In this document: in pieces, positions 15,843-38,096 of the stretch | How positions within the stretch are numbered: the first letter of the stretch is position 1 | Layout of the letters: every line of letters starts with the position of its first letter | Source: Akkermansiaceae bacterium | GTDB taxonomy: Bacteria > Verrucomicrobiota > Verrucomicrobiia > Verrucomicrobiales > Akkermansiaceae | Assembly (NCBI GenBank): GCA_903827375.1 | Contig: CAIKHZ010000105.1 | Coordinates: 1 to 64,000, forward strand | DNA: 64,000 bases | Direction: 5' to 3' | Made by a program: the position numbers and the translations under genes | The notes under the pieces: generated by a model | The model's database searches: none | Seen by the model: the letters and a program-made list of their open reading frames with translations, nothing else | Told to the model about the DNA's origin: nothing

Positions 15843-16577
15843 TCATTCCTGGATTTCTGACAATTCCCTGACTCTTCCGGCCCATGGCGGGAAATCACTG
15901 AACGTCTGGACGGTGGGTTGCCTGAACCTCTGGTCCACCAGCGTGACAACAATCTCCCGCCGGCGCTCGTTGGCTTTCCAACTCACCGACTGCCCCTTCA
16001 CCCACTTGCCGTCCGCACTCTGAAATTCAATGACCACGGGATACATGTTATATGCATCCACTTTCGCAGGATGCGGGAACAACGCATACTTCACCGGCGG
16101 AATCTGCGGCGTAGTCGCACCAGCCAGAATGAAGCGAACGGGCACCGGTGCCAAGTTGATTACTCTAACGCTTCCCAACGCAAATGTGGATAGCTCATCA
16201 TCATAGGCACGCACCTGATAGGGCAGTTTGCCTTCGCCGCCACCACTAGGAAGAAACAGAAGCAACTGCCGCTGCGCTTTGCCGAGGGTCACCTGACCAA
16301 CTGAAACCCGCAGGGGTTTGCCGTCGGGGCCGGGTTTTTCCGTGTAAAAGATGGCTTCATTGGAATTGAAGACCCCCTCGATGACCGGCGACACATCTGT
16401 GTACAGGACCACCTCTTGGGCTTTTGGCAGTTCCATGCCTGTCCATAACAGGACTGTCCCGAGTTCTTCGATTTGCCCGAGGCAGAGGGTTCTGAATTGA
16501 ACCTTGCGTGTCTGTTCGGCACATACTGAGGACACCAGCGCACACAGAGCGACGCTGGCAATGATGAGTTTCTTCAT
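15843..16577 (-). CDS. Small secreted protein, unknown function
   Basis: The 244-aa product starts MKKLIIASVALCALVSSVCA, a standard Sec signal peptide. The mature part is beta-rich: VQFRTLCLGQIEELGTVLLW, VSVGQVTLGKAQRQLLLFLP, ALGSVRVINLAPVPVRFILA. There is no catalytic motif, membrane segment or repeat. The start was set at 16577 by the signal peptide, since the ORF is open to 16619. It lies 57 bp downstream of the cassette A-type gene on the same strand and may be the last gene of that unit, which would make it a candidate accessory or surface partner. I do not recognise the family. Confidence 0.7.
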   Translation of the reverse strand: MKKLIIASVALCALVSSVCAEQTRKVQFRTLCLGQIEELGTVLLWTGMELPKAQEVVLYTDVSPVIEGVFNSNEAIFYTEKPGPDGKPLRVSVGQVTLGKAQRQLLLFLPSGGGEGKLPYQVRAYDDELSTFALGSVRVINLAPVPVRFILAGATTPQIPPVKYALFPHPAKVDAYNMYPVVIEFQSADGKWVKGQSVSWKANERRREIVVTLVDQRFRQPTVQTFSDFPPWAGRVRELSEIQE

Positions 16578-16634
16578 AAAATTTTGATTGGGTAAATGGG
16601 GTTGAATCATGACCAACATTAGATCAGGCGATGC

Positions 16635-19600
16635 TCAAATTTCAGAGTTATTCAGCCAACGGAATGCCCGCACCTTGAATTGGCGGCCGAAGTTGATATT
16701 GGCAGGTGTCGTGGCAGCGGCTTCGGCAATATCTGTGGCATCCACATATTCCGGCACGCGTTGCACCGTCGCCTCGCACCAAGCGCGGGCCGTGACCTTG
16801 CCACTGGCGTCCCTTGCCTCGCCGCAGGCGCGGATCCGGAATGTGTCTGAGCGAACGGTGGCGAATGATCCGATAGATGATAGGATATCGCCTTGGGAGA
16901 TCTCGCCGGGAGCCCCGGAACCGGTGTTGCCCGTCACGGCGACTGGGTTCTGCCAACCGTACTTTGCAACGTCGCCGGGCACAATAAGAGTGGCATCGGC
17001 CACCATACCGGCATTGAGGTTGGATTGGTTGAGGGCTGCTTGAAGCGCTCCGTTGCTAGACAGATCACCGGCCGGGCCGAGGCGGCGATTGACGAATTCC
17101 GCCATTGAAAGAAAGGGTCCGCGGGCACGAACTTGAGCGACGATATTTTCTGCGAGCTGTTTGACTTCATCCGCTTGCAGCGTCCGATAGCTGTTCCAAA
17201 GCAGATCCTTGCCGACACCCACTTGCAGGCCAAGCGCTGGGCGACGCATCCTGAGAAACGGAATACTGCTAGACATCACTTCATCAGGGCCGGACGCCAG
17301 CGGCACGTTGCAATCCGCCAGCCCGGACAAGACGGAGGTCCACGCGGCCACGGAGGTGCTGTTGACGTTGAAGCCGCCCGCTGTCATCATATAGGCGGCA
17401 GATGGTTTGCCATTGGTGTTCAACACGCCCGCCGCTGCATCCTTGGCGGTTGCACCGCTAGGGAGGCAGGGGATGTTGCGTGCGTTAGGCAACTGGCGTT
17501 CACCGGCAAAGAAATCGCTCGCCAGATCTTTAAGACTCACAGTGGACGGGCCGGAATACATCATGCCTTCCAGGGTCGCGAGGGTGGAGAACCAATAGCG
17601 ATCCCACAATTGGTCGTTGGCTAACCACGAATGATCCAGCACCATCCGCGAGGTATCGACTTTGTAGCTTGCCACGTCCGGCGGCAGTGCCGGATGGGCT
17701 CGGCTTTCGCCGATGGAATAGGTCACATAGGGAATGCTGCCGATGCTGGCGCCGTTGGCATGACGCAGTTGCGCTAGCGACTGCATGGGTGCCATCGGGA
17801 TTTCATAGATGGTTGCAGCAGTGGTGCCGTTGATGGCGCCATGGCCGCCGAAGAAGTAGCCTTTCTCACCGTCGGATTCGATGGCATTGCCACCGCCTCG
17901 GATCGGCACGAGGGCAAACTCCAACGGACTGGAGCCCTGGCTTTCCGCAGTGGTGAAATCACAGGTAGCCATCTGCATTGCCAGCCCCGTATCGGCAACC
18001 GGGCGAGAGCGGGTAAAGGACTCGACGGTGGTCTTGCCGCCGATGCTGAAGACCGCGAACGGTCTGGCTCTGGAATAGTCCTTCACTTGGGTGGCGTTTG
18101 CTTCGTAAATCGCTGATGAAGTGATCGGGACATCCACCCCGGGTTTTGGATAGGTCTCCGGAAAGCGCCTCACTGTCTTGAACCGTGGCGAAGTGCCCTC
18201 CTGCGCAATCTCGGTGAGTCTGGCTTGATCCTTGTAGAAAATTTGGGTGGTTCCTACCGGTGGAGCCACCGTTCCGGTGGCAGCTCCGGGAGGAACCAAA
18301 GTCACTGATATACTGAACTGGTTGTCAGCGGTGGCAGGCGGCTTCGGGCCATATCGCACACCTATCAAATCATCAGGACTCAGCAAAATGATGCTCTCGG
18401 ATGTGCGGGCTTTGAGCCAATCCGCTTTGGATCCCGGCGCAATCCAGTCCACGTCGAAGCCAACCGCGTCTTTTGGGCCGGTGATCATACCGGTCATGAT
18501 TTTCGCACTATTGGTGAAGGTGTCCCGCCAGTCGAACATTTTTGTGCCGTTGGCACCGCCCTCCACTTCCTGGGCAAACGTCCATTCAGGCGGAAACGGC
18601 TTTCCAAAGATACGGGTTTCACCCGCTCCCATCACCACCTCGGTGGCATCGCTCAGACTACTTGACAACGTTAGGCCGAAGGATTTTTTCTGCGAACCGG
18701 ACAGATACAAGTCGTTCAACGATGTTAGGTCCGTGCCGGTTGTTGCGGACTGACCATTGACGATGAATTGGAAGGCCATCGGAATATCGGAAAACGAGAC
18801 TTGGAGATTGGTGAAACGCAGTGGAACGTTGTATGGGTTGTGGAGGGTGATCACCGGAAGATACATCATGTGGAGCATGTATGGCATGCCTGGTTTTGCG
18901 CGACCTTGGTGTGCATCCCGTACGATCAGGGAAAATAGCACATCGATCCTGACGACAGTTGGCATCAGCATGGCGGTCTTGAGCCTCTTCATGTTCGGCT
19001 CGTATCGGTTTGCATGGACCGTCCTGTCCAGTATGGTACTCAACGCATAGTTCAAAGGCACCACCGCCTTGAGTCCCTCCTTCGGATTGTCTTTAGTCGT
19101 GGTCTTTCGGTACAATTTGGCATAGTCAGCGTAGATCGCCCACAACGGATCAGCGGTGGCCAGCCCGGCCGTATTGTTGTCGGAGTAAAGGAAGCGCGTG
19201 GCATAGTCACTTGGCAGAGCGGCCGCATCAAACAGAACACTCAGGTCGGTCTTCAAGCCGCCGTTGACCACATCGGACTGGACCGAAGCCGAGTCCACAC
19301 TGAAATCGTGAAAATAGGGCGCCAGCGCCTGACTGGCACCGGTTGCCAGGTTTGCCTCGCCGAGGCTCACCAATTTTGGCAGGACGTCGCTGAGTTTCAC
19401 CTTGTTGCCTGATAGAAATTTGAGACTAGCTATGCTCTTAAAGCCATTGTGTGCCGGTGCCCCCACTTGGGTGATCTTATCGGCAGGACAGGTGGGATTG
19501 CTAGCAGGTGATAGGTTGATCCGGCCCTTGACGCCTTCATCTAGGACGACCCAGGCGAGTGAGCCAGAGGCGGCGCTGGTCTTGGAAGGGGTGATGGGCA

Positions 19601-20096
19601 GAGTCGGCACGCTGATCTCGCTCTGTGGGCTGCCAGCGCCTACGCTGCCAGGACCCACCAAGCGCTGGTCGCTTGCCGATGCTTGCGGCAACACCGCAGG
19701 ATCAGGCTGGCCCGTGCGATCCGGGTTTGACATCAGATACCCGAGAAAATTGTTGCGGGTTTTCGCTAGTGTATAATTTGGCGTTGCAGATGGCGGCCTC
19801 CAGGATTTCCACACGCCGGTGATTCCCGCCGGCGCTTTGGCACTGACCAGATTGGCGGGGGCAGTGATTCGCTGGTCCAGGCCGGCGTTCCTCTGCAATT
19901 CACCGATGGCCAGCATCAGGGCCAAACGGGCGTTGGCGCGGGCGGTGGCCAACGCTTCACCCCGGCCCGCCGTGCGCGACGCGACACTTGAGAGGGTCAG
20001 AAGCCCGACCACAAGGACGGTTAGAAGAACCATCAGTGACAGGGTCATGACAAGGGCAAAGCCGCGCGACTGAGGTTTCCCGGGAGGGAGGGGCAT
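16635..20096 (-). CDS. Verru_Chthon cassette protein A-like, pseudopilin-type anchor
   Basis: The 1153-aa product starts MPLPPGKPQSRGFALVMTLS followed by LMVLLTVLVVGLLTLSSVASR, a type IV pilin/PilX-like N-terminal anchor with a short basic leader. The next 100 residues (ATARANARLALMLAIGELQR) continue the pilin helix. The bulk (VVLDEGVKGRINLSPASNP, FLSMAEFVNRRLGPAGDLSS, AWCEATVQRVPEYVDATD near the end) matches my memory of the Verru_Chthon cassette A family (TIGR02600), found in Verrucomicrobia beside proteins B, C and D. None of those is in this window. The ORF is open to 20333, but the pilin leader fixes 20096. It lies 115 bp downstream of a PATR gene on the same strand. The role is probably cell-surface assembly or secretion; this is inference. 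Confidence 0.8.
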   Translation of the reverse strand: MPLPPGKPQSRGFALVMTLSLMVLLTVLVVGLLTLSSVASRTAGRGEALATARANARLALMLAIGELQRNAGLDQRITAPANLVSAKAPAGITGVWKSWRPPSATPNYTLAKTRNNFLGYLMSNPDRTGQPDPAVLPQASASDQRLVGPGSVGAGSPQSEISVPTLPITPSKTSAASGSLAWVVLDEGVKGRINLSPASNPTCPADKITQVGAPAHNGFKSIASLKFLSGNKVKLSDVLPKLVSLGEANLATGASQALAPYFHDFSVDSASVQSDVVNGGLKTDLSVLFDAAALPSDYATRFLYSDNNTAGLATADPLWAIYADYAKLYRKTTTKDNPKEGLKAVVPLNYALSTILDRTVHANRYEPNMKRLKTAMLMPTVVRIDVLFSLIVRDAHQGRAKPGMPYMLHMMYLPVITLHNPYNVPLRFTNLQVSFSDIPMAFQFIVNGQSATTGTDLTSLNDLYLSGSQKKSFGLTLSSSLSDATEVVMGAGETRIFGKPFPPEWTFAQEVEGGANGTKMFDWRDTFTNSAKIMTGMITGPKDAVGFDVDWIAPGSKADWLKARTSESIILLSPDDLIGVRYGPKPPATADNQFSISVTLVPPGAATGTVAPPVGTTQIFYKDQARLTEIAQEGTSPRFKTVRRFPETYPKPGVDVPITSSAIYEANATQVKDYSRARPFAVFSIGGKTTVESFTRSRPVADTGLAMQMATCDFTTAESQGSSPLEFALVPIRGGGNAIESDGEKGYFFGGHGAINGTTAATIYEIPMAPMQSLAQLRHANGASIGSIPYVTYSIGESRAHPALPPDVASYKVDTSRMVLDHSWLANDQLWDRYWFSTLATLEGMMYSGPSTVSLKDLASDFFAGERQLPNARNIPCLPSGATAKDAAAGVLNTNGKPSAAYMMTAGGFNVNSTSVAAWTSVLSGLADCNVPLASGPDEVMSSSIPFLRMRRPALGLQVGVGKDLLWNSYRTLQADEVKQLAENIVAQVRARGPFLSMAEFVNRRLGPAGDLSSNGALQAALNQSNLNAGMVADATLIVPGDVAKYGWQNPVAVTGNTGSGAPGEISQGDILSSIGSFATVRSDTFRIRACGEARDASGKVTARAWCEATVQRVPEYVDATDIAEAAATTPANINFGRQFKVRAFRWLNNSEI

Positions 20097-20211
20097 GAGG
20101 TAGCTGGTGAATTGGCTAGGCGCGGGGAAGCGCCGGTGGATCGGGTGGCAAGACAGGAATCGGCTTGTCGTTAGTGATACAAGAGGCGGACAGCCCGCGA
20201 TGCGTGACGGA

Positions 20212-23200
20212 TTACTTTGTCGCCACGAGGCGGCCGAAGAGTTTGGCACCGACGGCGTTGCTGCGGGGTACAGTGATGGTGATGATGTCGGGCTGAGTCG
20301 CCGGGGTGCCTGGGTTGATATTAACAACCACACCGTGGGCGTCCGCAGCGGAACTGGTGGCAGGCACCGGAACCATGGTCCAACCCGCTAGATTTGAGCC
20401 ATATTGGAAGCTCAGGGCAACTTCTGCTAGGGAGTCATCCGAGCGGTTAAAGGTAAAGACAAAGGCAACGGGGGTTACAGTTAGAGCTGGAAGGATCGAA
20501 GGATTCGACGCCAGAGGATTGCCTCCGAGGACGAACTTGAGCAAATTGGGGATGCCATCTTTAGCCGGATTCTGGGTTGGTCCGTCATTCACACCCGGGG
20601 TGAGGCCCTTGGCGAGCGCCCAAGTCCCGTACGCGGAAGTTGACGGGCCTGTTGTTACTGTGAGTGTTCCGGTGCCAGAGAAGTGAACGTCGTCGATATT
20701 TGCCGCGCCAGAGCCGCTTGCCCCGTAGGTACCGGCGGGTTTTTGGGTCGCACCAATTGTCAAGGCATGGACGGTATCGGAGACACCGGTGCTAAAGCTC
20801 AGTTTGAGGACGGCATTGGCAGCGATCAAGACATCCGCTGCATTTGCTAGGAATGGAGTTGTCGTTTCGAGGGTACCGGCAATAACAGTGGTGTTTCCGG
20901 TGTATGTGTTTCCTCCCGAAAGCGTGGTGGTTCCGGTTCCAATCTGAATGACCGAGCCTGTGCCGGATATCACATTGGCGAAAGCAAGTCCATCACTGCG
21001 GTTGAAGACTAGAGTCCCGGCGTTGGCGACCTCCGCAGGGCTTGCCAGGCTGCCGCCGGTGGAGCCATTGCCAATTTGCAATGTACCAGCGGAAATCGTG
21101 GTGGTTCCGGTGTAAGTGTTAGCACCCACAAGCGCCATGGTACCGGTGCCGCTCTTGATCACGGAATTTGCCCCTCCACCAATAACTCCTGAGATCACCA
21201 GATCGATGCCGTCTGGTACGCTGCCTGCTGCGACATTGATAGGCAATGATCCTGAGCGGATTGTGATTCCCGCGCTGATCACCGAGGCCGTGGAACTGGC
21301 GAGCGTCGTCACTCCAAATCCATTCATCGAGTCGAAGTGATAGGTTCCAGCGATGGCGGCCATGGTCCCACCGGTGAGATAAAAATGGGTGGAAAACCCC
21401 TGATTGCCGCCCATATCCGTCAGAGTCCCACCGTTGATGTTAACCGTATCCACCCGCAAACCGCTGCTGTAGCCGAGGGCATCCCCTGAAGCCAGATTCA
21501 CGGCTGCACCGGAGTTGATATTGAGAGCGCCACGGATCGCGCCGGTTCCACCACCGGTCCCCAAAGCCAGTGTCCCTCCATTGACGGTGGTTCCGCCGGT
21601 GTAAAGGTTATATCCGGAAAGCGTCAACTTGCCGTCACCGGTTTTAAGCAAGCTGCCGGCAGTCGCCGCTGCCGCTCCGCTGATGGTCAAATTGGCGCTG
21701 ATATCAGGAACATCGAAGGTGGCAGAAGTGCCAGATGAAATCGTGAAGCCACGGTCCGTAAATGAAGTTGCCGTCGCCGCATATCGCAGTGTTCCTCCGG
21801 TGAAGACGAGGTTTGACGCTGCATTGCTTGATTGGCCAATGTCACTGGGATTCCCCCCGCTACTCAATCGATTGACGATTAACACCCCTCCATTGATCGT
21901 GGTCGGGCCGCTATAGGTATTGAAAACCGGGCCGTCGATAACCAAGGTGCCACTGCCATTTTTGACAAGTCCGCCCGTGCCGGTGATCCCGGATCCATCA
22001 TCGGTGGTGAGGGTGTAATTCACGGAGGAGTTATTGAAGACGCACGAGGACGGGCTGACATCCGTGACATCACCGCTGTGGATGGTGATGGTTGATAGAG
22101 GCGCGCTGACGACTCCGCCGATATTCACTGTGTCATTGAATTCCACACTATCGGCGGGCCAGAAATCCGTCTGGGCGTGGGCGGCTTTCAAGGCCCAGGT
22201 TGGCGTTCCGCCAACACTGTTAGCAATTCCTGTAGTCCAGATCCCACCGTGGGCACCGCTCCACACTGCGGTGTCGCCGCTGAGGTTGAGCGCTATGTTG
22301 TTGCCATTGACAAAAAGGGGGCCGGACACGGCCTGGCGGGCAGTCAGGCCGGTCACGGTGCCCAAGGTAAAGTTTCCAACAGCACCGCTAAAGCTGCCAA
22401 AACTGACCAGATTGTTAGGCCCTGGCACCCAATTGGATCCGGAAACGTTCAGCACGATCTGGCCGTTGGCGGGGGTCGTCGTCAACGCGCCAGTGATCGG
22501 TAGGCCCGCTGAACCACCGGTCACGTTGAGATTCACCGTGGCCGCGCCACCAAACGTCAGGGATGCCATCGTGAGAGCGCCGGGCCCACCGTTGCCACTG
22601 GCCACGATGTTTGATAGATCGTTAGCCACTGAGACCGCGCCGACCGTGCCATTTCCATCCAAGGTCCCCAGCGCCAGCGTGACTGGTGGAGTTGAGGCCA
22701 CCGAACTGGTCATCACGAATTTAGCGCCGCTGCCATGGATGATGATGCCATTGCTGGTGTTGATCGCCCCAGCAGCGTTTACCAGCAAAGTGCCGCCAGT
22801 CACGCTGGTTGGCCCTGTGTAGGTGTTAGTTCCAGACAAGGTAACGATGCCCGCCCCAGTGGTAGTCAGGGCGCTGGCATTTGTGCCGTTATTGGAGATT
22901 GGGGCGGCGATGATGATATCTGCTGCGGCTGTGTTCAGCACCAGATCCAGGGAAGCTCCGATCGTGACAGAGCTACCAATGGTGAACGAGCCGGCACCGG
23001 TATTTAGAAACCCGTTCATCGTGATGGAGGAACCTGCCTGGGAACCATCTGCCGTGCCATTGTATTGAATGGTGTTGACATTGCGTGCTGCGACAGAAGC
23101 CGGATAGATACCGCCACCTCCTGTCATCACAAAATTGAGGGTGTGGCTGTCACCGCCACCAATTCCATCCCAGGTGCTGGTTGCTAGTGTGAGAGACTGG

Positions 23201-23805
23201 ACGTGGCCTGTGTAAGGGGCCAAATTGCCAGCAGTCACCTTTGCATAGGTTGTTGCGGTGCCGGTCCCCATGGTTGCCCATGGTCCCACCATGCTGTTCA
23301 CTAGTGTTAGGCCAGCTGTGACCGTTCCCGATCCCGGGATATTGAGAGTTGCTCCGGGGCTGCGGGTGAAAGTGCCTGTGTTGAGCGTGAGAGTCCGGCC
23401 GGTGGCGACGTTCCACGTTTGGCCGCTGCTACCCAGAAGTATCAGCCCGGAGCTAACGGTGAGGTTCTGGGTAGCCGCGCTCATGTCGATGCCGGATGAG
23501 CCGAGGGTGAGCGTGTTACCCACGCCGATCGTGACTGCAGCACCTGGGTTGGTGATTGAGATCCCACTCCAGCTCAGGTCTGCGCCGAGAGACACGGCAT
23601 TCGCAGAGGTAACGATTGCACTCCACGTCGCGATGTCTGACGCCGTCGGCAGCACCGCCCCGCTCCAGCTCGAGGCGAGGTTGAGACTGCTCGCGTTATT
23701 GGCCTTCTGGCGGCTGGCGGCTTGCGCGGGATACGCAAGGCCAGCAACGGTGAGTCCGACAACCATGGGACGGAGATGATGGAGTGATCGGCTTCTGAGT
23801 TTCAT
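20212..23805 (-). CDS. PATR-repeat surface protein (1197 aa)
   Basis: After a signal peptide (VVGLTVAGLAYPAQA) comes a beta-helix-forming protein built from autotransporter-associated beta-strand repeats. I count five core motifs of the type N-T-Y-[TS]-G-x-T-[TS]-[VI]-x-x-G-[TV]-L, for example ANTYTGTTTISAGTL. The C-terminal module has WALAKGLTPGVNDG, then DGIPNLLKFVLGGNPL, FTFNRSDDSLAEV, FQYGSNLAGWT and PRSNAVGAKLFGRL, ending VATK. There is no 12-strand autotransporter barrel. Start 23805 fits the signal peptide; 23823 is also in frame. It lies 45 bp after the larger paralogue and shares the module and an internal segment with it, so the pair arose by duplication. Likely secreted or surface-attached. 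Confidence 0.85.
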   Translation of the reverse strand: MKLRSRSLHHLRPMVVGLTVAGLAYPAQAASRQKANNASSLNLASSWSGAVLPTASDIATWSAIVTSANAVSLGADLSWSGISITNPGAAVTIGVGNTLTLGSSGIDMSAATQNLTVSSGLILLGSSGQTWNVATGRTLTLNTGTFTRSPGATLNIPGSGTVTAGLTLVNSMVGPWATMGTGTATTYAKVTAGNLAPYTGHVQSLTLATSTWDGIGGGDSHTLNFVMTGGGGIYPASVAARNVNTIQYNGTADGSQAGSSITMNGFLNTGAGSFTIGSSVTIGASLDLVLNTAAADIIIAAPISNNGTNASALTTTGAGIVTLSGTNTYTGPTSVTGGTLLVNAAGAINTSNGIIIHGSGAKFVMTSSVASTPPVTLALGTLDGNGTVGAVSVANDLSNIVASGNGGPGALTMASLTFGGAATVNLNVTGGSAGLPITGALTTTPANGQIVLNVSGSNWVPGPNNLVSFGSFSGAVGNFTLGTVTGLTARQAVSGPLFVNGNNIALNLSGDTAVWSGAHGGIWTTGIANSVGGTPTWALKAAHAQTDFWPADSVEFNDTVNIGGVVSAPLSTITIHSGDVTDVSPSSCVFNNSSVNYTLTTDDGSGITGTGGLVKNGSGTLVIDGPVFNTYSGPTTINGGVLIVNRLSSGGNPSDIGQSSNAASNLVFTGGTLRYAATATSFTDRGFTISSGTSATFDVPDISANLTISGAAAATAGSLLKTGDGKLTLSGYNLYTGGTTVNGGTLALGTGGGTGAIRGALNINSGAAVNLASGDALGYSSGLRVDTVNINGGTLTDMGGNQGFSTHFYLTGGTMAAIAGTYHFDSMNGFGVTTLASSTASVISAGITIRSGSLPINVAAGSVPDGIDLVISGVIGGGANSVIKSGTGTMALVGANTYTGTTTISAGTLQIGNGSTGGSLASPAEVANAGTLVFNRSDGLAFANVISGTGSVIQIGTGTTTLSGGNTYTGNTTVIAGTLETTTPFLANAADVLIAANAVLKLSFSTGVSDTVHALTIGATQKPAGTYGASGSGAANIDDVHFSGTGTLTVTTGPSTSAYGTWALAKGLTPGVNDGPTQNPAKDGIPNLLKFVLGGNPLASNPSILPALTVTPVAFVFTFNRSDDSLAEVALSFQYGSNLAGWTMVPVPATSSAADAHGVVVNINPGTPATQPDIITITVPRSNAVGAKLFGRLVATK

Positions 23806-23850
23806 AATCAATGGCTGGAGCAAAGACCCGCCGCGTGAGGATTCTCTTGA

Positions 23851-26800
23851 TTATTTAACTGCCTGGAGGCGACCAAACAGCTTGCCACCCACCGCATTGC
23901 TGCGTGGAATGGTGACGGTCACGGTGTCGAGGGGCGAACCATTGGCGATGCTAACTTCCGGGCCGCTGCTGGCGGTGTCTGCACCGATCGCCACATTCGT
24001 CCAACCGACGACGTCCGAGCCATATTGGAATGTTGCGGTGATTTCCGCTTCGGATGCCACGGCGCGGTTGAAGGTGAAGATGAAGCCCGTTGGGGTAAGC
24101 GATTCACGCGGCAGGATCGAAAAGTCCGAGACGAGGGGGTTGCCACCGAGCAGGAACTCGAGGGCATTCGGAATGCCATTGTTGTTCGGATCTTGGTTAG
24201 GTCCGTCGTTCACCCCCGGGGTGAGACCCTTTGCGAGAGCCCAGTTATCATAAGCACTGGCGATCACCGCGCCATGGCTGACACTCAGGATGCCGGTGCC
24301 GGTGATGCGAGCGGTCTTGTGAGCTGCGGAAGATGTGAGGCTGCCCCATGTTCCGGCAACTTGCTCCACTCCGTTGATGTAGAACGAGTCCACCACATCG
24401 GTCGCTCCGGATGTTAGGTTCAGAGTTCCCGACACACCGATGCGAACCGCCGCAGTGTCGGAGAGGAAAGCCGTCGGAATCGTCAACACGCCGCCTGTGA
24501 CTGAGGTCTCGCCGGTGTATGTGTTAGCACCCGACAGAATCGTTGTTCCAGCACCCAACTGGTTGACCGACCCTGTGCCGGAAATGGCATTTGCAACAAT
24601 GAGCGAATCACTGCGGTTGAAGGCGAGGGTCGCATTGTCCACCACATCCGCAGTGCCCAAGTTGCCAGTGGTGGAGCCGCCGCCGATTTCCAGAATTCCT
24701 CCTGAAATGGTGGTGGTCCCGGTATAGACATTCGCGCCGGTAAACGTCCAAGTGCCGGTATTGGACTTGGTCACCGTCAGAGGAGTGTCGCTTTCAGAAA
24801 GCGCGCCTGAGACCACGTTGGCGGTGTTGGTACCATCAAGGATCAGCGATGCGGTGCTGTGGCTGGCAGCAACATTGCCAAGAATCAGCGCCGCACTCGT
24901 TGGATTGTATTTTACCTGCGCGCCTGGGTGCCAGTTTTGGAAGAATACATTGTCTAATTTGAAGCTGTATCCATTGGCACCGGTCACGTTCATCACTGTG
25001 GTGTAATTGTCTCCCATCCACCAACTGCCGCTGGCCTCAATCACGCCTTCGTTGCTTCCGTCGCCGTTGTTATTCACATCCACGGTGAAGGTCGTGCTAC
25101 CATAGTTGTTAAGATTGTTAGCAATGACACCGCCGCCGTTAAAATGCAACGCGATCGTGGAAAGGTTGGAGCTGGACCACAAAGTACCGGATCCTGCAGC
25201 TTGCGGGTGGGTGATCGTCAGGGCGATATTCCCGCCAATTGTGGTATTCCCCGAATAGGTGTTAGGACGGGACAGCGTCACTGCGCTCTGTGCGATCAAG
25301 CTTGCCGTGCCGCTGATTGCGTTATCGACGGTTTCCTCAAGAGCCCCTGTGCCGGATATGGTGATGGTATTCTGGCTGACCGCTCCGGCGGCCTGCATGC
25401 TCAAGATGCCGCCGCTGACGTTCACCACGCTGTTGGCGAGTGGCGCCGCTAGGGCAAGCGTGCCGTTGGTGACGGTAGTGGCACCGGTGTAGGTGGTGAC
25501 GCCCGAAAGCATCTGAGTGGAGGGGCCGCTCATGGTAAGTGAGAGTTTACCAGCGGTTCCGTCTTGGAGTGTCCCGAGGAAGTCACTGTTTATAGCACCG
25601 TTAAGGGTGAGCGTGGCGTTCGTGGCATTCGAGTTCTCGACGGTCGCCTGGCTGTCTGAGGACGCCAGCCCGCCGAGGGCGACCGAGAATCCGTCCAATT
25701 GAAGAGCCCCAAAGCTCGCCGAACCGAATGTCAGCAAACTCCCATTGCCAAGAGCACTGGCATTGCCGACCTTGAGGCGGCAGGTATCGGAATTGATGTT
25801 GATTCCGCCACTGAAGGTATTGGCACCACTCAATGTTAGGACATGTGCGGCACCGCCCAAGCTCACACTGCCCGTGCCGCTGATGATTCCGTTGAAACTC
25901 TGATCGGCACCTGCCAGGTTGTAAACAAGGCTGCCGTTATCCACGATGCCGGCGCTGCTCGCAATCGAGCCGTCCGTCGTGCCATCGCCAAGCTGCAATG
26001 TGCCGCCGTTGATGGTTGTGACACCGGTGTAGGTATTCACCGTCGTCAACGTCACCGTGTTGCTGCCATTTTTGGTTAGGTTACCCGTCTGGATTCCGCT
26101 GGCGTCATGGCTCTGAATGGTGAAGGGCAGCAGCGAGTTGTCAAACGTAGTCGTGCTGGGACTCACACCGCCTTGAATCGTCACCGTGGTCGAGGTCGGT
26201 GCCGCCGGAGCGCCAGCGCCAATCTGAACCGTGTCATTGAACTCGACATTGTCTGTGGCCCAGAAATTGGTCGGCGCGTGAGCGGTTTTGGTGGCCCAAT
26301 TGGTGGCACCGCCATTGTTGCCGGTGGCGCTGGTGGTCCAGAATTCGCCGTTAGGACCGCCGTGGGCACCGGTCCAAACCGGGGTATCGCCGGTGACGGT
26401 CAGCGTGATGAATGAGCCGGAGTTGCCCAATGTCGGCGTCTGGCGACTCGAGAAGCCAGTCCCAACCGCAAAGTCCGACAGGGATCCGGTGAAGTTGGTA
26501 TAGCCGATCAAGTTATAGACGAGATCATTTGCAAATGGGTTGGCTGGGGCGGCATTGATTGTGATTCCACCCGCACCTGCGCCGGAAGTATCCAATGTGC
26601 CGGCGACCAAGGGAGCCGTGGTTATCGCGCCGCCGATCGGGACGATGGAGATTTGGCCAGATCCACTGAAGGACAAAGTACCGATATTGAGTGTCGCCGG
26701 GGTGCCGTTGCCATTGGCCACCGTGGAGCCGTTTCCTCCAAACACAGTCACCGAAGAAACTGAATTGGAGCCGTCGAAGGTGCCTTGGGTCAGATTGACC

Positions 26801-29800
26801 GGCGCACCCAGAGGCACGGTGCTAACCAGCTTCGCGGTGCTGCCGTTGATGGTGATGCTACCGGTGGCGGTGGTGTTTGACATCAACAATGTTCCACCGA
26901 ACACCGCAGTCTCGCCGGTGTAGCTGTTTGCTCCGGAAAGCGTGGTGAGGCCCGTTCCAGACTTGATGAAACCACCCGTACCGCTGATGGCACCGGAGAA
27001 GGTATTCACATTGCTTCCATTGCTATCCACAACACCCGCATTGGCGATGGTGTTAGGCATAACGGCATTATTGGCGAGATTGACGCCCAGGGCAGCAGGG
27101 GCGGCGATGGAGATCGGAGAGGAGGTTGCAAGACTGCCACTGGCACCATTTCCAATTTGCAATTTACCATCCGACACGGTGGTGGCACCTGTGTAAAGGT
27201 TGATCCCGTTGAGAAGCAAGGTGCCCGGGCCACTCTTGACGAGGCTGCTATTGCCATTGCCACCGCCATAGGTTGTGATAGCTCCGGAGATAGCCAGATC
27301 GGTGCCACTGGTAGCGCCGGAGGCGACCACAATCGCCAGGGATGACCCGCGAATCGCAATCGGGGCATTGAAGAGTGATGTCGTGGGACTGCTGAGACTG
27401 GTGATTCCAAATCCGGTGTTAAAGTTATATGCACCGCCCGATGAGCTCACCGTGGCACCCGTCAGATTGAAGTTGCTGACAAATCCCTGGTTGCCTGACA
27501 AATTCGACAGAGTGCCGCCATTCACGTTGACGGTGTCCGTGCTGACCCCACCCGTATTGTATCCGAGAGCATCGCCATTGTGCAAAACCACCGTGCCACC
27601 CGAGTTAATGGTAAGAGTGCCGCGGACGACACCTGAGCCGCCGCCATTGTTCAGATTGAGCGTGCCCCCGTTGACCGTGGTGCCGCCGGTGTAGCTGCTG
27701 ATTGCGGTGAGGGTCAGCGCCCCGGCTCCGGCCTTGGTTAGGCTAACTGCGCCACCGCCAACGACGCCACCCACCGTGAGGGCTGCGCTACCTTGGCTGG
27801 TCACGGTGCAGTTAGCTCCAAGTGTCACCGCGCCTGTTCCGAGATTGAGATCATTAGCACCACCGAAGACGATGTCGGCGTTCCAACTCTGAGGCATATT
27901 TCCATTCAGAGTGAGCGCGGAACCACTCGTGTTGTCAAAAGATCCGCCGGTGATGGTTAAGGCACCCGAGCCGATGGCGGAAGCACTGTTCAAATTTAGG
28001 ACGCCGCCGCTAAGAACCGTCGGGCCGTTGCGGGCGTTCGTGCCGGCGAGGGTGGTCGTGCCAGCCGTTGCAAACGAGGCCGAACCGCTGAGAATACCAC
28101 CAGAAATTTCCGTAAATGTCGCTCCGGACGCCACGTTGATCGGCGTGCCAATGAGCGAACCAGTTGCACCGAGATTCAAGGTGGCACCGGAGGCCAAGGC
28201 GATCGGGGTGGCTGTGAATGAGCCATTGAGGTCCAGTGTGCCGGCGTTGATTGTCGTCGTGCCGCTGAAGGAATTGGCCGTGTTGATCGTGACGGTGTTC
28301 GTGCCGTTCATGATCAAACCGCCTGTTCCCACAATGCCAGTGCCGTTCGCGCTAGTTAGAGTGTAAGGCAGGGCAGAATTGTTAAAGGTTGTCAGTCCCG
28401 GGCTGACGTTGGTGGTGATATTTACTGCGGTTGTGGTGGGTGCCACGGGTCCTGCACCGAGGTTCACCGTGTCATCGAATTCCACCGTGTCTCCGGCCCA
28501 AAAATCGGTTGCGGTATGGGCGCTCACCAGCGCCCAGTCTGGAGTGCCACTGACTGAACCGGTGGTGCCCGTGTTCCAAGTACCGGCACTTGCACCCGAC
28601 CATGCAGGACTGTCGCCGACGACGTGAAGTGTGAGGGTGTTGCCGCTTTGTCCGAGCGTAGATAGCCCTGCCTGTCGGGAGGTCAGACCGTTGCCCAGCG
28701 TGAAATCAGCCAGGGATCCCGAAAGACTGCCGTAGCTGAGCAAGTTATAGGTATCGCCACTCACAAAGGGATTGGCCGGAGTCACGTTGATCGTGATTGG
28801 GCCGCCACCTGTTGTCAGAGCTCCGGTGACCACCAGCGGAGTTGTGCCAGTAGCTGCGCCGCCTGCCGGCTTGAGGGCCAGTTTGGCCGAGCCGCTGAAC
28901 GTCAATGCTCCAGTTGTCAGAGTGCCGGATCCGTTGGCCACGGTGTTACCGACACCACCTGCCACGGAGATTGAGGAGACGGTGTTCGATCCGTTGAAGG
29001 TTCCTGACGTCAGAGTGATGGCGCTGGCGCTGGTGCCCGTCTGCACCAAGGTTCCGCCGGTGATGGTGGTCGCGCCGGTATATGTGTTATTGCCGGAAAG
29101 CGTCTGCGTGCCCGCACCGGTTTTATTGACCGCGCCGCTGCCGCTGATCACCCCGGCAAAGGTGGGAGAACCGACGACCGGGTTGAGAATCAAAGTGGCA
29201 TTATTGACGATTGATGTGCTGGCCAGGCTACCGTCGCTGGTGCCGTTGCCGAGTTTGAGCGTGCCAGCGTTGATGGTTGTTATGCCGGTGAAAGTATTGG
29301 CACCAGCAAGCGTCTGAGTGCCTGCGCCGATCTTGATCAGGCTACCCGCGCCGCTCAGGACACCGGAAAATGTTTGATCCGTCCCGTTATTGCCCACCGT
29401 GAGTGCCACGGCGGTCAAGGACGTCGTATTGCCTAACGTGACACCACCAAAGGCACTGACCGCGCTGCCGCTCGAGAGCCCGCCAATGGTCGCCGCAGTA
29501 ATGCCGTTGCCAAAAATCAGCGGCCGCCGAATGCTATTTTCAACTTTGTTCGAGTTGCCCTGGGCGTTTTGCACATTGATGGTTGCATTGGCCAACGCAC
29601 TGGTCGCATCGATATATAAGTTACTCCAACCATCACTGGCGATCGTCACCGTCCCATTGTAGGTGCTGACGCCCGCATTGCTAAAATGGACGTTGTTTCC
29701 CGCATAGTTCGTGTCGATCATGGAGGTTCGGGCAATCGTCACATCGCCGCTGCCTGAAACCGCACCACTATACGTTTGAACCTTGCCGTCGTAGGTCCCA

Positions 29801-30771
29801 CCCAAATAGGAAGTCGTGCTGCCGGCATTGATGGTGAGCGAACCAGATAGGGTCGTGTTGCCGTTGCCGCCAAAAATCCCGCCGCCGGCAAGGACCCAGT
29901 TATTTGTGGGGCTCACCGTACCAACCATGAGCAAGCCGCCATTGAGGGTCACCGTGCCGGTGCCGAGTGACGACACATTGCCGCCAACGAGTGACAAAAC
30001 TCCGCCGTTGAGCGTCGTGCCACCACTGTAGGTGTTCGCGGCCTTGAGAGTCAACGCCGCCGTTGCCGTTGCGGCGGTAGGAAGGGGAATAACAGATTCA
30101 TTGAGAATGATGGATCCCGTTCCAGAGATCACGCCCGTCTGGAACGTCTGAGCTGCACTGCTGCCATAGTTGAGAGTGCCGTTATCGATGATCGCGGCCG
30201 AATACGTGCCATTGCCCAATTTTCCCGCGCCGCTGATTTGCAGCGTGCCTCCGGTGTCGATGCTCGTCGCGCCGGTGTAGGTGTCCACACCCGATAGATT
30301 GAGCGTGCCAGGCCCGACCTGGGACAGGCCGCCGGCCGTGCCGCTGACGACACCCGACAGCAGGACCTGGCCGCCCGCGACGGTCGTCACGGTCCGCACG
30401 GCAGTGGTGACGATTGGCAGGCTGATTGTTTGCAGGTTGGCGGCGGCGCTGCTGATATTTCCGGCTAGGGTGATCGAGTTACCGGCGAGGGTGAAGGGGG
30501 TTGCGGCAGCATCGAAGGTGATACCGGCAAAGCTGGTGGCAGCGGCGAAGTCATTGCTTGTGCTGGTGTTGGCCGCGCCGGTAAAGACCAGTGCATCTCC
30601 AGCAACAGGAGGGGTGTCCCAGTTCGCGGCGCTCCACAGATTGCTGGCGGCACTTGCACTCCATGTGCGCGTCGCGGCTTGGGTGGTTTGACTGCTGACT
30701 GCCATCACGACTGCGGCGAATGCCAGAGCTGTGTTGCGGAGAAACGGATTGGACTTATAATTGGATTTCAT
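23851..30771 (-). CDS. Giant PATR-repeat surface protein (2306 aa)
   Basis: A signal peptide (TALAFAAVVMAVSSQTTQA) and WSAANWD..P.AGDALVFTG precede a very long array of PATR motifs. I count about 15, such as ANTYSGGTTLNGGVL, NNTYTGATTITGGTL and ANVYTGTTTISGGIL. Two larger internal repeats (each ANPF...YNL...G.L.DF...SRQ...W.GA...ATDFWA.D.VEF.DTV) resemble one in the smaller paralogue. The C-terminus repeats the paralogue's module: WALAKGLTPGVNDG, GIPNALEFLLGGNPL, FQYGSDVVGWT, PRSNAVGGKLFGRL, ending QAVK. No barrel domain is visible, so export probably does not follow the classical type V route. Likely a long beta-helical fibre or adhesin. It is the first gene of a minus-strand run of four, divergent from GH2. 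Confidence 0.88.
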   Translation of the reverse strand: MKSNYKSNPFLRNTALAFAAVVMAVSSQTTQAATRTWSASAASNLWSAANWDTPPVAGDALVFTGAANTSTSNDFAAATSFAGITFDAAATPFTLAGNSITLAGNISSAAANLQTISLPIVTTAVRTVTTVAGGQVLLSGVVSGTAGGLSQVGPGTLNLSGVDTYTGATSIDTGGTLQISGAGKLGNGTYSAAIIDNGTLNYGSSAAQTFQTGVISGTGSIILNESVIPLPTAATATAALTLKAANTYSGGTTLNGGVLSLVGGNVSSLGTGTVTLNGGLLMVGTVSPTNNWVLAGGGIFGGNGNTTLSGSLTINAGSTTSYLGGTYDGKVQTYSGAVSGSGDVTIARTSMIDTNYAGNNVHFSNAGVSTYNGTVTIASDGWSNLYIDATSALANATINVQNAQGNSNKVENSIRRPLIFGNGITAATIGGLSSGSAVSAFGGVTLGNTTSLTAVALTVGNNGTDQTFSGVLSGAGSLIKIGAGTQTLAGANTFTGITTINAGTLKLGNGTSDGSLASTSIVNNATLILNPVVGSPTFAGVISGSGAVNKTGAGTQTLSGNNTYTGATTITGGTLVQTGTSASAITLTSGTFNGSNTVSSISVAGGVGNTVANGSGTLTTGALTFSGSAKLALKPAGGAATGTTPLVVTGALTTGGGPITINVTPANPFVSGDTYNLLSYGSLSGSLADFTLGNGLTSRQAGLSTLGQSGNTLTLHVVGDSPAWSGASAGTWNTGTTGSVSGTPDWALVSAHTATDFWAGDTVEFDDTVNLGAGPVAPTTTAVNITTNVSPGLTTFNNSALPYTLTSANGTGIVGTGGLIMNGTNTVTINTANSFSGTTTINAGTLDLNGSFTATPIALASGATLNLGATGSLIGTPINVASGATFTEISGGILSGSASFATAGTTTLAGTNARNGPTVLSGGVLNLNSASAIGSGALTITGGSFDNTSGSALTLNGNMPQSWNADIVFGGANDLNLGTGAVTLGANCTVTSQGSAALTVGGVVGGGAVSLTKAGAGALTLTAISSYTGGTTVNGGTLNLNNGGGSGVVRGTLTINSGGTVVLHNGDALGYNTGGVSTDTVNVNGGTLSNLSGNQGFVSNFNLTGATVSSSGGAYNFNTGFGITSLSSPTTSLFNAPIAIRGSSLAIVVASGATSGTDLAISGAITTYGGGNGNSSLVKSGPGTLLLNGINLYTGATTVSDGKLQIGNGASGSLATSSPISIAAPAALGVNLANNAVMPNTIANAGVVDSNGSNVNTFSGAISGTGGFIKSGTGLTTLSGANSYTGETAVFGGTLLMSNTTATGSITINGSTAKLVSTVPLGAPVNLTQGTFDGSNSVSSVTVFGGNGSTVANGNGTPATLNIGTLSFSGSGQISIVPIGGAITTAPLVAGTLDTSGAGAGGITINAAPANPFANDLVYNLIGYTNFTGSLSDFAVGTGFSSRQTPTLGNSGSFITLTVTGDTPVWTGAHGGPNGEFWTTSATGNNGGATNWATKTAHAPTNFWATDNVEFNDTVQIGAGAPAAPTSTTVTIQGGVSPSTTTFDNSLLPFTIQSHDASGIQTGNLTKNGSNTVTLTTVNTYTGVTTINGGTLQLGDGTTDGSIASSAGIVDNGSLVYNLAGADQSFNGIISGTGSVSLGGAAHVLTLSGANTFSGGININSDTCRLKVGNASALGNGSLLTFGSASFGALQLDGFSVALGGLASSDSQATVENSNATNATLTLNGAINSDFLGTLQDGTAGKLSLTMSGPSTQMLSGVTTYTGATTVTNGTLALAAPLANSVVNVSGGILSMQAAGAVSQNTITISGTGALEETVDNAISGTASLIAQSAVTLSRPNTYSGNTTIGGNIALTITHPQAAGSGTLWSSSNLSTIALHFNGGGVIANNLNNYGSTTFTVDVNNNGDGSNEGVIEASGSWWMGDNYTTVMNVTGANGYSFKLDNVFFQNWHPGAQVKYNPTSAALILGNVAASHSTASLILDGTNTANVVSGALSESDTPLTVTKSNTGTWTFTGANVYTGTTTISGGILEIGGGSTTGNLGTADVVDNATLAFNRSDSLIVANAISGTGSVNQLGAGTTILSGANTYTGETSVTGGVLTIPTAFLSDTAAVRIGVSGTLNLTSGATDVVDSFYINGVEQVAGTWGSLTSSAAHKTARITGTGILSVSHGAVIASAYDNWALAKGLTPGVNDGPNQDPNNNGIPNALEFLLGGNPLVSDFSILPRESLTPTGFIFTFNRAVASEAEITATFQYGSDVVGWTNVAIGADTASSGPEVSIANGSPLDTVTVTIPRSNAVGGKLFGRLQAVK

Positions 30772-34776
<4,005 letters not shown>

Positions 34777-34886
34777 CCCCTTTCAAGTCGGCCCGCCGGA
34801 CAAAAGCTCGGACCCCGGGGCGGGTATGGAGTGGGCAATAACTTCAACTTTAGCGAGGTGGAGCCTCAAACCAGACGACAGGTGAA

Positions 34887-34944
34887 AACGACTTCGGCGG
34901 GCGCTCAGTCGAACGACTTCGGCGGGCGCTCACACCGAAGTCGT
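34887..34944. repeat. Short tandem repeat with inverted end, upstream of sensor kinase
   Basis: AACGACTTCGGCGGGCGCTC plus A occurs at 34887-34907 and again at 34912-34932, a period of 25 bp. ACCGAAGTCGT at 34934-34944 is the inverted form of its first half, so a hairpin can also form. The rest of the 263-bp gap between the GH2 gene and the kinase shows nothing I can name. It could be a regulator-binding site or a small dispersed element. Confidence 0.5.
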
Positions 34945-35039
34945 CAATCCATCCGGTTCTGGAAAACTCGACTCCCTCACACGGACGCTAGGCACGACAG
35001 GGGGGATTGGAAAATAGCCGCTTTTTTAACTCTTTGAAA

Positions 35040-38000
35040 ATGAACATGTTAATTTATGTTACTCAGGAGGAGACTGATTCCCCATTGCATCACCCACCAT
35101 CCATTTCCGTCCCTTGCGGCCATCATCTTCCGGCGTTGCCAACGCTGGTCGTTACCATCCTGTTAGCACTTTTCTCCCTGTCCGTCTGCCGGGCTGCCGA
35201 GGAGCGGGTGTACCTCAATCGGTTCTGGCAAACGAGCGACGGCATGCCGAGCAATTCGGTGTCACGCATCGCCAAGGACCGCGATGGTTTCCTGTGGATC
35301 GCCACCGGTGCCGGCGTCGCTCGCTTCGACGGCCTCCGCTTCGAAACATTTTACTCCACGGACGGACTGCCGGACACCCAGATCTACTGCCTGCAGGTTG
35401 ACCAACACAACCGCATCTGGGTCGGCACCCGGCGGGGTGTCGCCTATCGTGAAAATGGCTTGTGGATCATTCCTGCTGGCTTGCCGGCGGCCCCGGTGTT
35501 CTCGCTGGGCGAAGGTGCAGACGGCAGCATCTGGGTCGGGACCTACACCGGTTGCTGGCGCTGGGCCGACGACAAATTCTCGCCGATCGACTTTGGCGGA
35601 AAAACGCCGGATGTGCGTGCATTCCTGCGCGACGGCTCCAACGCGATGTGGGTCCTAACGCAAAATTGTTTGTATCGCTGGAGTGCGGATCGCCCCAACC
35701 ACGTGCAAGAGATTGCCGGGCCATGGAGCGGCAAGGACCTGCGCGACCTCGCCTGTGACAACGACGGCCGCCTGATGGTTTGTGGCAGCAGCCTGCTGCT
35801 GCGCCAACAGGACAACGCCTGGGAAGACCTCAACCGCAGTGTTCCCGGAGGTGAACAAAACGCTTATCTCGCCTGCGCCGTCGCTCCAGACCACACCCTC
35901 TGGCTCGCCACCCGCAATCACGGCCTTGTTTTCCTCAACGGCCCGGAATCCGGTGCCGTCGATACCACCAACGGTCTTTCCCTCAACGACGTCCGCAGCG
36001 TCATGATCGATGCCGATGGCCTCATCCTCGCAGGCACTAACGGCGGCGGCATCAACCTTCTTCGCCGCCGACTCTTCGACACCTACTCGACCATCGAAGG
36101 CCTCGGCAGCACCATCACCACCGCCTTGGTTGTTAGTCGAAGCGGCGCGGTTTTTGCAGGCACCGACGGCAGCGGTATCTTCATCAAACAAGAGGGCAAA
36201 TTCGTGCCACACTTCTGCAAGCCGGACCTGCCGGAAAATGGACTCATCTGGTCCATGTGCGAGTCACCGGATAAGAGTTTGTGGGTTGGCACCCACCACG
36301 ACGGACTCTTCCGCTGCCAACATGACCAGATGCAACACATTCCGTTAGCCCCGGAACTCACCAACCAATCCATATCTGCTCTGCTTGCAACCCACGACGC
36401 CGGCCTGCTCATCGGCACCCATGGCGCCGGTGTCCGCAAGTGGAAGGACGGCCAATTCGATCCCTCGTTCCCCCGCCTCGTTCCCGGCGAACAAAGCGTC
36501 GTCTATGATATGCTAGAGGACCCGCAGGGCCGAATCTGGGTCGCCACCGGCACTTTCGGCCTGTGGACGCTCGAAAACGACGCTTGGATCGATATGACGC
36601 GCCGCCTCAACATGCCCAGCCTCATCGCCGCTGTCCTTCACCTATCATCTAACGGCGACATCTGGGTCGGCACCCTCGGCCAGGGCCTCGCCCGCATCCA
36701 TGACGGCCACCTAGCGCAGTGGCAGCAGCGCGATGGCATGGTGAGTGACACAATTTGTCAGATCCTTGAGGACGATGCCGGCTGCCTGTGGCTGGGGTCA
36801 GACCGCGGCCTGCAGCGGGTGTCCCGCGCCGCTCTGGACGCCTACCACCGAAACAGCCGCGCCCTGCCGGTGGAAAGCATGCGCTTCAACCGTGAGGACG
36901 GGCTGCCCACACCCCAATTCAGCGGCGAACACGGCAACCTCGCGGTGCGGGCCGCAGATGGCTCGCTGTGGTTCTCGCTGGCCTCCGGTGCCGTCCGCGT
37001 GGACCCCCAGCATTTCGCCAAATCCACCCCCCTGCCATGCCTCCGCATCGAAAGCGCCACCGCGGATAAAAATCCCATCTGGTCCTTCGAAGGCATCCAC
37101 GCGCGCCGCCCAATCGTCCTCGCCCCGGGCGCCGGTACCCTGCAAATCCGTTTCACCTCGCCCAATTTCATCGCCCCCGAACATAGCCGATTTCAATACC
37201 GCATGACCGGCGTGGAAAAAGAGTGGCAAGAGGTGGAAGGCACGCGGGTGGCCAGTTACGCCTCGTTGCTGCCCGGCACCTATCAGTTTGAGGTGATCGG
37301 CGCCAACTCCGATGGCACTTGGAACCCCAGCCCCACTCGCATCACCGTGCTCGTCCAACCCTTCCTCTGGCAAACCCTCGGCTTCCGCCTAACCGTTGCC
37401 CTATTCGCTCTATCAGCCGCAGGGATGGCCATCCGCGTCGCCTCATTGCGCCGCTTGCAACGCCGCATGGCCGCCGTCATGAACGAAATGCGCGTCGATA
37501 AGGAACGCACCCGCATCGCCCGTGACCTCCACGACGACCTCGGCGCGAGCCTAACTGAAATCAACTTTCTCGGCACCCTCACGGCCAACGCGGTGAGTGA
37601 CAACGTGGTGCGCCAGCGCATCGAGGGCATGGTCGAACGCGCCCAGCGAATGACCAAGGCGCTCGATGAAATTGTCTGGACCGTCAATCCGGCAAATGAC
37701 TCGCTGTCCTCCACCGCCAATTACCTCTGCTCCCGCGCTCAGGAAAGCCTCGTCACCGGCGGCATCCGCTGCCGCCTGGATGTCGCCGACGACCTGCCTG
37801 CGACCACCGTCGACTCCGAACTCCGCCACAATCTGCTGATGGCCGTCAACGAGGCGATCCATAACGTCCTGAAGCATTCCAAAGCCACCGAATGCTCCCT
37901 CTCAATCCAAATCGACCTAGGCGCTCTGCAGGTGACCGTCGCCGACAACGGCGGCGGCTTCGTGCCGGTTGGCGCTCCTGATGGCCATGACGGACTGGTC

Positions 38001-38096
38001 AACTTGCAGCGCCGCATGGAAGCGTCCGGCGGCTCTGTGGACATTGCCAGCACCCCGCACGGCACCGTGGTCACCCTCCGCGTCCCTTTGCCATGA
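35040..38096 (+). CDS. Propeller-type sensor histidine kinase (Reg_prop/Y_Y_Y/HisKA_3)
   Basis: This is a two-component sensor of about 1018 aa. After a signal or membrane segment (TLVVTILLALFSLSVC) come repeats of the two-component regulator propeller type: GLPDTQIYCLQVDQHNRIWV, DGSIWVGTYTG, NGDIWVGTLGQGL. A Y_Y_Y domain (RFQYRMTGVEKEWQEVEG...YASLLPGTYQFEV) precedes a membrane helix (TLGFRLTVALFALSAAGMAI). The cytoplasmic part has RIARDLHDDLGASLTEINFL with phospho-His831, and HATPase boxes NEAIHNVLKHS and VADNGGGF. In Bacteroidetes and Verrucomicrobia such sensors detect sugars from polysaccharide breakdown. The start could be 35007, 35040 or 35046. The response regulator gene follows 85 bp downstream. 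Confidence 0.92.
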   Translation: MNMLIYVTQEETDSPLHHPPSISVPCGHHLPALPTLVVTILLALFSLSVCRAAEERVYLNRFWQTSDGMPSNSVSRIAKDRDGFLWIATGAGVARFDGLRFETFYSTDGLPDTQIYCLQVDQHNRIWVGTRRGVAYRENGLWIIPAGLPAAPVFSLGEGADGSIWVGTYTGCWRWADDKFSPIDFGGKTPDVRAFLRDGSNAMWVLTQNCLYRWSADRPNHVQEIAGPWSGKDLRDLACDNDGRLMVCGSSLLLRQQDNAWEDLNRSVPGGEQNAYLACAVAPDHTLWLATRNHGLVFLNGPESGAVDTTNGLSLNDVRSVMIDADGLILAGTNGGGINLLRRRLFDTYSTIEGLGSTITTALVVSRSGAVFAGTDGSGIFIKQEGKFVPHFCKPDLPENGLIWSMCESPDKSLWVGTHHDGLFRCQHDQMQHIPLAPELTNQSISALLATHDAGLLIGTHGAGVRKWKDGQFDPSFPRLVPGEQSVVYDMLEDPQGRIWVATGTFGLWTLENDAWIDMTRRLNMPSLIAAVLHLSSNGDIWVGTLGQGLARIHDGHLAQWQQRDGMVSDTICQILEDDAGCLWLGSDRGLQRVSRAALDAYHRNSRALPVESMRFNREDGLPTPQFSGEHGNLAVRAADGSLWFSLASGAVRVDPQHFAKSTPLPCLRIESATADKNPIWSFEGIHARRPIVLAPGAGTLQIRFTSPNFIAPEHSRFQYRMTGVEKEWQEVEGTRVASYASLLPGTYQFEVIGANSDGTWNPSPTRITVLVQPFLWQTLGFRLTVALFALSAAGMAIRVASLRRLQRRMAAVMNEMRVDKERTRIARDLHDDLGASLTEINFLGTLTANAVSDNVVRQRIEGMVERAQRMTKALDEIVWTVNPANDSLSSTANYLCSRAQESLVTGGIRCRLDVADDLPATTVDSELRHNLLMAVNEAIHNVLKHSKATECSLSIQIDLGALQVTVADNGGGFVPVGAPDGHDGLVNLQRRMEASGGSVDIASTPHGTVVTLRVPLP

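Follow-up and report, generated by a model that had tools for sequence, protein, structure and literature searches.

A C-terminal module on diverse exported proteins of Verrucomicrobiota, exchanged with PEP-CTERM tails, as a candidate localisation domain

A module of about 130 residues closes two large secreted proteins of an Akkermansiaceae bacterium. It forms a separable appendage at the C-terminus of exported proteins, exists in many copies and is exchanged with a known sorting tail, PEP-CTERM. It seems rather probable that this appendage serves as a modular localisation domain of the C-terminus, for sorting or for attachment, and functionally parallel to PEP-CTERM; we infer this role in location from its restriction to protein tails, the diversity of its passengers, their signal peptides, the predicted fold, the exchange of tails and the pairing of genes.

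The window, a stretch of 64,000 nucleotides, makes up most of one contig (CAIKHZ010000105.1) of an assembly of 6.11 Mb in 370 contigs. Two genes on its minus strand carry the module. The first encodes a giant secreted protein of 2306 aa (23851..30771) with a Sec signal peptide-like N-terminus and 13 PATR repeats, and its end is module A (23854..24252; 133 aa up to the stop at 23851), defined by translation, profile match and an AlphaFold2 model. The second encodes a secreted protein of 1203 aa with five PATR repeats (20212..23823, counted from a mechanically assigned TTG, with an ATG at 23805, six codons inside), which ends in module B (20215..20631; 139 aa up to the stop at 20212), defined by translation and profile match. 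Over 133 residues modules A and B are 59% identical, and the genome search gave E=3.2e-44 for the match; this is far above chance and bears out the first-pass annotation of a common module at the ends of both PATR proteins. Its further remarks, that neither protein has an autotransporter barrel or a PEP-CTERM tail, also hold: Pfam recognises PATR and one sub-threshold DUF only, and there were no PEP-CTERM matches on the whole contig. The loop motif that it gave stands with corrected letters, NGIPNALE in module A and DGIPNLLK in module B. The loop of module A reads DPNNNGIPNALE (24157..24192, minus strand) and was placed by alignments, the family consensus being DxDxDGxxNxxE; that of module B, NPAKDGIPNLLK (20536..20571, minus strand), is degenerate at the acidic positions when its translation is set against the consensus, and two of the acidic residues that the consensus has are missing. 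Both modules finish on a terminal strand with the motif FGRL, at 23866..23877 in module A, where alignments place an invariant Arg five residues before the C-terminus, and at 20227..20238 in the translation of module B (both minus strand). Sequence of the non-terminal PATR region is also common to the two proteins, so that within the window alone the common end could be ordinary paralogy; this objection was removed by the genome-wide survey of module carriers. Elsewhere in the window, the plus strand at 31009-38096 encodes a LacZ-type β-galactosidase with an inserted Laminin_G_3 domain; beside it lies a large ORF that resembles sensor histidine kinases and whose N-terminal part is weakly PorZ-like.

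For the source genome, a profile of 25 modules at a cut-off of E up to 0.01 returned 137 module matches, and reading of 78 genome stretches gave 81 module ORFs in full, 77 of which have the module as their C-terminal end to within 5 residues. By a crude hydropathy rule, a signal-peptide-like N-terminus was called in 62 of 75 complete carriers versus 65 of 108 neighbouring ORFs of at least 300 aa. Pfam annotation of 52 carriers yielded 60 families, including Laminin_G_3, SASA, GDSL lipases, esterase, Big_1/invasin, LRR_5, RCC1, HYR, cyclophilin and NAGPA; compact proteins of 320-500 aa and enzymes are carriers as well. Because the passengers are so diverse, with PATR on only 14 of the 52, the module is no feature of PATR proteins but an added end of unrelated exported proteins. 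The first-pass annotation had proposed a search for unrelated secreted proteins with only this end in common, and many were found, both in the source genome and in other Verrucomicrobiota; the two outcomes that it named as adverse, a module confined to PATR paralogues or equal to a known structural domain, were not encountered, the domain being uncatalogued although the fold of its sandwich is generic and FN3-like. Two or three module copies occur in around ten proteins, a few of the copies being internal. Multi-copy proteins were noted at eight loci, some again with internal copies.

The C-terminal end of the carriers is itself fixed. Among 205 complete carriers, 195 show the pattern [FLYMI]xR[LVIAFM] within their final 16 residues, versus 37 of 436 other proteins, and the conserved Arg is followed by 4-7 residues in 178 of these 205. 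Pro closes 89 of 195 carriers, against a background of 15%, and one of the residues P, E, Q, K and N closes 174. Near-invariant positions of the module are W7, D24, D28, G29, N32, E35, P42, P51, R66, L84, W87, F129 and R131. Since the search that gave the named loci used a seed over the loop, the loop part of their alignment is biased; the alignment from the source genome also keeps D21, D25, G26, N29, W84, F126 and R128. The loop motif D.[DN].[DNG]G is found in 160 of 195 module ends, module B of the window being a degenerate copy.

The AlphaFold2 model, computed from 86 aligned rows that came from the window and the named loci (pLDDT 97.2, pTM 0.90), predicts a helix at residues 3-10, an EF-hand/TSP3-like loop, a second helix at 32-38 and a seven-strand FN3-like sandwich, the last strand of which (129-135) forms the C-terminus. 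Residues 50-136 of the model superpose on FN3 domains such as those of cytokine receptors (Z 7.7, 2.7 Å over 77 residues); the likeness lies in the arrangement of the predicted sandwich, whereas identity is about 9% and Z stays below 8, and an arrangement as common as this is no sign of kinship. The DxDxDGxxNxxE loop with its following helix resembles TSP3/EF-hand-type loops, for instance those of dockerins, but the module has a single loop fused to an FN3-like sandwich. A weak profile similarity to a calmodulin-type loop was seen (E 0.21), and from the loop pattern the module is probably stabilised by Ca2+. Searches of Pfam with six module representatives at E up to 10 gave no match for five and two chance-level matches for the sixth, NCBIfam at the same limit returned only weak unrelated matches, and PDB sequence searches with two module profiles gave nothing significant. 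No description of the domain was found in the literature, and its novelty is provisional since subscription papers lay outside the scope of that search.

The module is widely distributed in the phylum. A sample across Verrucomicrobiota showed it in 71 of 115 genomes, belonging to 44 of 62 genera, and it was identified in 127 of 145 genomes of the source family. Close named matches come mostly from Akkermansiaceae and Verrucomicrobiaceae, the named loci including Luteolibacter, Rubritalea, Opitutaceae, Puniceicoccaceae and one Kiritimatiellae MAG; a match labelled Pelagibacteraceae is probably a mis-binned MAG. Among ORFs from other genomes with a real stop, 118 of 125 end within 5 residues of the module. 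One small-genome genus of the source family looks like Akkermansia, and up to 8 modules were found in such Akkermansia-like genomes. One Akkermansia-like locus encodes a sialidase-like protein with BNR repeats, BACON domains and the module at its end. The plasmid records that were searched contained no module match.

The closest functional parallel is the PEP-CTERM/exosortase system (TIGR02595, PF09721; Haft et al. 2006, PMC1569441). Like PEP-CTERM, the module occupies the extreme C-terminus of many signal-peptide proteins, occurs in high copy number on diverse passengers and is common in Verrucomicrobiota. The PEP-CTERM tail, however, is a stretch of about 24 aa with a PEP motif, a transmembrane helix and a basic tail, whereas the module is a soluble folded domain of 130 aa; when these features were sought in 195 module ends, PEP was present in two, a TM-like stretch in one and a basic pair in three. 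The source genome encodes about 20 PEP-CTERM proteins (19 over the cut-off) and two exosortases, and homologous passengers were found that end either in the module or in PEP-CTERM, with homology stopping where each tail begins. Such pairs are formed by adjacent genes on contigs C148 (72% identity) and C36 (52%) and on contig NZ_JAENIJ010000006.1 of Luteolibacter pohnpeiensis (62.5%), and by genes on separate contigs in C138 versus C180 (50%) and C180 versus C256 (45%). Eight distinct PEP-CTERM genes end flush with a module passenger, compared with 4 of 476 other ORFs, and these four are tailless versions; four passengers occur also with neither tail.

The two kinds of genes are also paired. 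In the named loci, a module gene is the direct neighbour, in the same orientation, of 10 of 15 PEP-CTERM-like genes, the rate given by other genes of the same loci being 0.20 (P about 1e-4), and the paired proteins are possibly differently localised partners of one assembly. Operon-like pairs of this kind were noted at ten loci, several of them with homologous passengers. Exosortase was detected in 56 of 58 genomes with at least two modules versus 24 of 57 others in the phylum sample (Fisher 3e-11), and in 109 of 115 genomes with at least five modules versus 19 of 30 in the source family (Fisher 3e-5), phylogenetic confounding being only partly controlled. No exosortase match was obtained in six genomes of the family with 5-29 modules, although some genomes may be incomplete. 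Four exosortase-negative genomes (G132, G138, G151 and G210) hold 10-29 modules each, which makes a direct dependence of the module on exosortase unlikely. The link is an association that is not obligatory and is partly phylogenetic. The module does not behave as a PEP-CTERM signal itself: its ends lack the PEP-CTERM features, and it is not restricted to genomes with exosortase/EpsH, as module-rich genomes that are exosortase-negative exist.

Within the localisation-domain reading, two sub-cases compete, and each taken singly is rather doubtful. The module may be a strict export signal, which by analogy with the type IX CTD would be recognised by an undescribed outer-membrane secretion system and perhaps cleaved after transport. 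The extreme C-terminal restriction with its fixed end argues for such a signal, as do the many copies on diverse passengers with signal peptides, the phylum-wide spread and the swapping with another sorting tail; however, no machinery was found, tandem and rare internal copies exist, and the presence of T2SS secretin-like proteins does not track the module. T2SS was discarded as a tracked partner, secretin-like matches being nearly universal and hence not discriminating; in Akkermansia-like genomes only weak matches to GspD were obtained, although as many as 8 modules are present. In Bacteroidota, the type IX CTDs are folded β-sandwiches that sit, as the module does, at the extreme C-terminus of a variety of Sec-exported proteins, but the module has a helix-loop-helix N-terminal part and no CTD sequence match in Pfam or NCBIfam, and T9SS was set aside as a general partner on the lack of such a match. 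SprA_N had no match in the source genome, in a search run without a positive control genome; the fold comparison returned FN3/Ig-like sandwiches, with no T9SS CTD among the matches listed, which excludes nothing. A classical autotransporter (type V) was also rejected, as there is no β-barrel, Pfam finds nothing beyond PATR and the sub-threshold DUF, and the module is modelled as a soluble sandwich.

The other sub-case, no less tentative, is a surface- or matrix-binding domain on proteins exported by another route, the module retaining them on exopolysaccharide, on LPS or on a partner such as the adjacent PEP-CTERM protein. It is consistent with the predicted FN3-like sandwich and EF-hand/TSP3-like hairpin, with the operon-like pairing with PEP-CTERM genes and with the association with exosortase, which is itself tied to exopolysaccharide production (PMC1569441). 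Tandem and internal copies are easier to reconcile with binding than with a strict export signal. A binding module is not as a rule restricted to the last residues, however, and the constant end of 4-7 residues past the Arg calls for a further reason. The sorting signal proposed in the first-pass annotation is favoured by C-terminal restriction and diverse secreted passengers but held back by two points, namely that no receptor was found and that a surface- or matrix-binding domain would look alike in sequence.

A passive C-terminal cap or autochaperone, which would stabilise long repeat proteins and have no part in localisation, is improbable. Many carriers are indeed long repeat proteins with the module after the last repeat, but the compact carriers and the enzymes do not fit this explanation, and an exchange with PEP-CTERM at the same junction would be unexpected.

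Downstream of the module B gene lies the gene for a giant GspK-like or Verru_Chthon-A-like pseudopilin of about 1160 aa (16635..20126, minus strand) with the prepilin motif RGFALVMTLSL and a TIGR02600 match confined to its N-terminus, followed by one for a small secreted protein of 258 aa (15843..16619, minus strand; assigned by ORF order and size only). Sixteen full-length members of this pseudopilin family, of about 1200 aa, were read in the source genome, in many cases with an ORF of 250-300 aa coming next (again by order and size only), and some of the genes cluster with module or PEP-CTERM genes; a literature search on Verru_Chthon found no papers. As a general partner of the module the pseudopilin was rejected, since no more than 29 of the 115 genomes encode it and just 4 of the 78 named module loci contain it. 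That it is a dedicated partner selecting module proteins is very improbable, for although it directly follows module B and a module gene is in the same cluster at about six pseudopilin loci read in the source genome, it is missing from many module-rich genomes (five such were noted) and some of its genes follow PEP-CTERM genes rather than module genes. The pseudopilin is locally linked to the module genes of the window and is not a general partner.

For the localisation-domain reading, the following course of events may be proposed. Carriers would enter the periplasm via their N-terminal Sec signal peptide, and the folded, probably Ca2+-stabilised C-terminal domain, in which the last strand and the free end keep a set distance to the invariant Arg, would then direct or attach the passengers (adhesins, PATR β-helices and hydrolases) to the outer surface or the exopolysaccharide of Verrucomicrobiota. 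The module would thereby do in soluble folded form what PEP-CTERM does as a membrane tail. The surface destination and a receptor are what we infer, and no receptor or recognising machinery was found among the partners examined, namely exosortase, pseudopilin, T2SS and T9SS. The reading is further weakened by the module-rich genomes that are exosortase-negative, by the proteins with two or three modules, by the passengers with neither tail and by the incomplete loop of module B. It is conceivable, if short of an even chance, that Verrucomicrobiota possess an undescribed export or surface-attachment pathway that recognises the folded module, serves up to 100 or more proteins per genome and operates beside exosortase/PEP-CTERM with exchangeable tails; as part of the same conjecture, this pathway would also serve Akkermansia-like proteins such as the sialidase-like one.

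To our knowledge, it is largely unknown how giant repeat proteins and polysaccharide-degrading enzymes are placed at the surface of Verrucomicrobiota, and the mechanism of PEP-CTERM sorting is still poorly understood. A domain that marks more than 100 proteins in one genome would make a surface proteome predictable from sequence, and it offers a handle for a search for the machinery by phylogenetic profiling or genetics. The module reaches genomes that appear to be those of Akkermansia, a human gut symbiont, and the exchange of tails ties it to the PEP-CTERM sorting system. Found at the end of so many otherwise unrelated exported proteins, and so widely in the phylum, the module is a strong candidate for an undescribed localisation tag used alongside PEP-CTERM.
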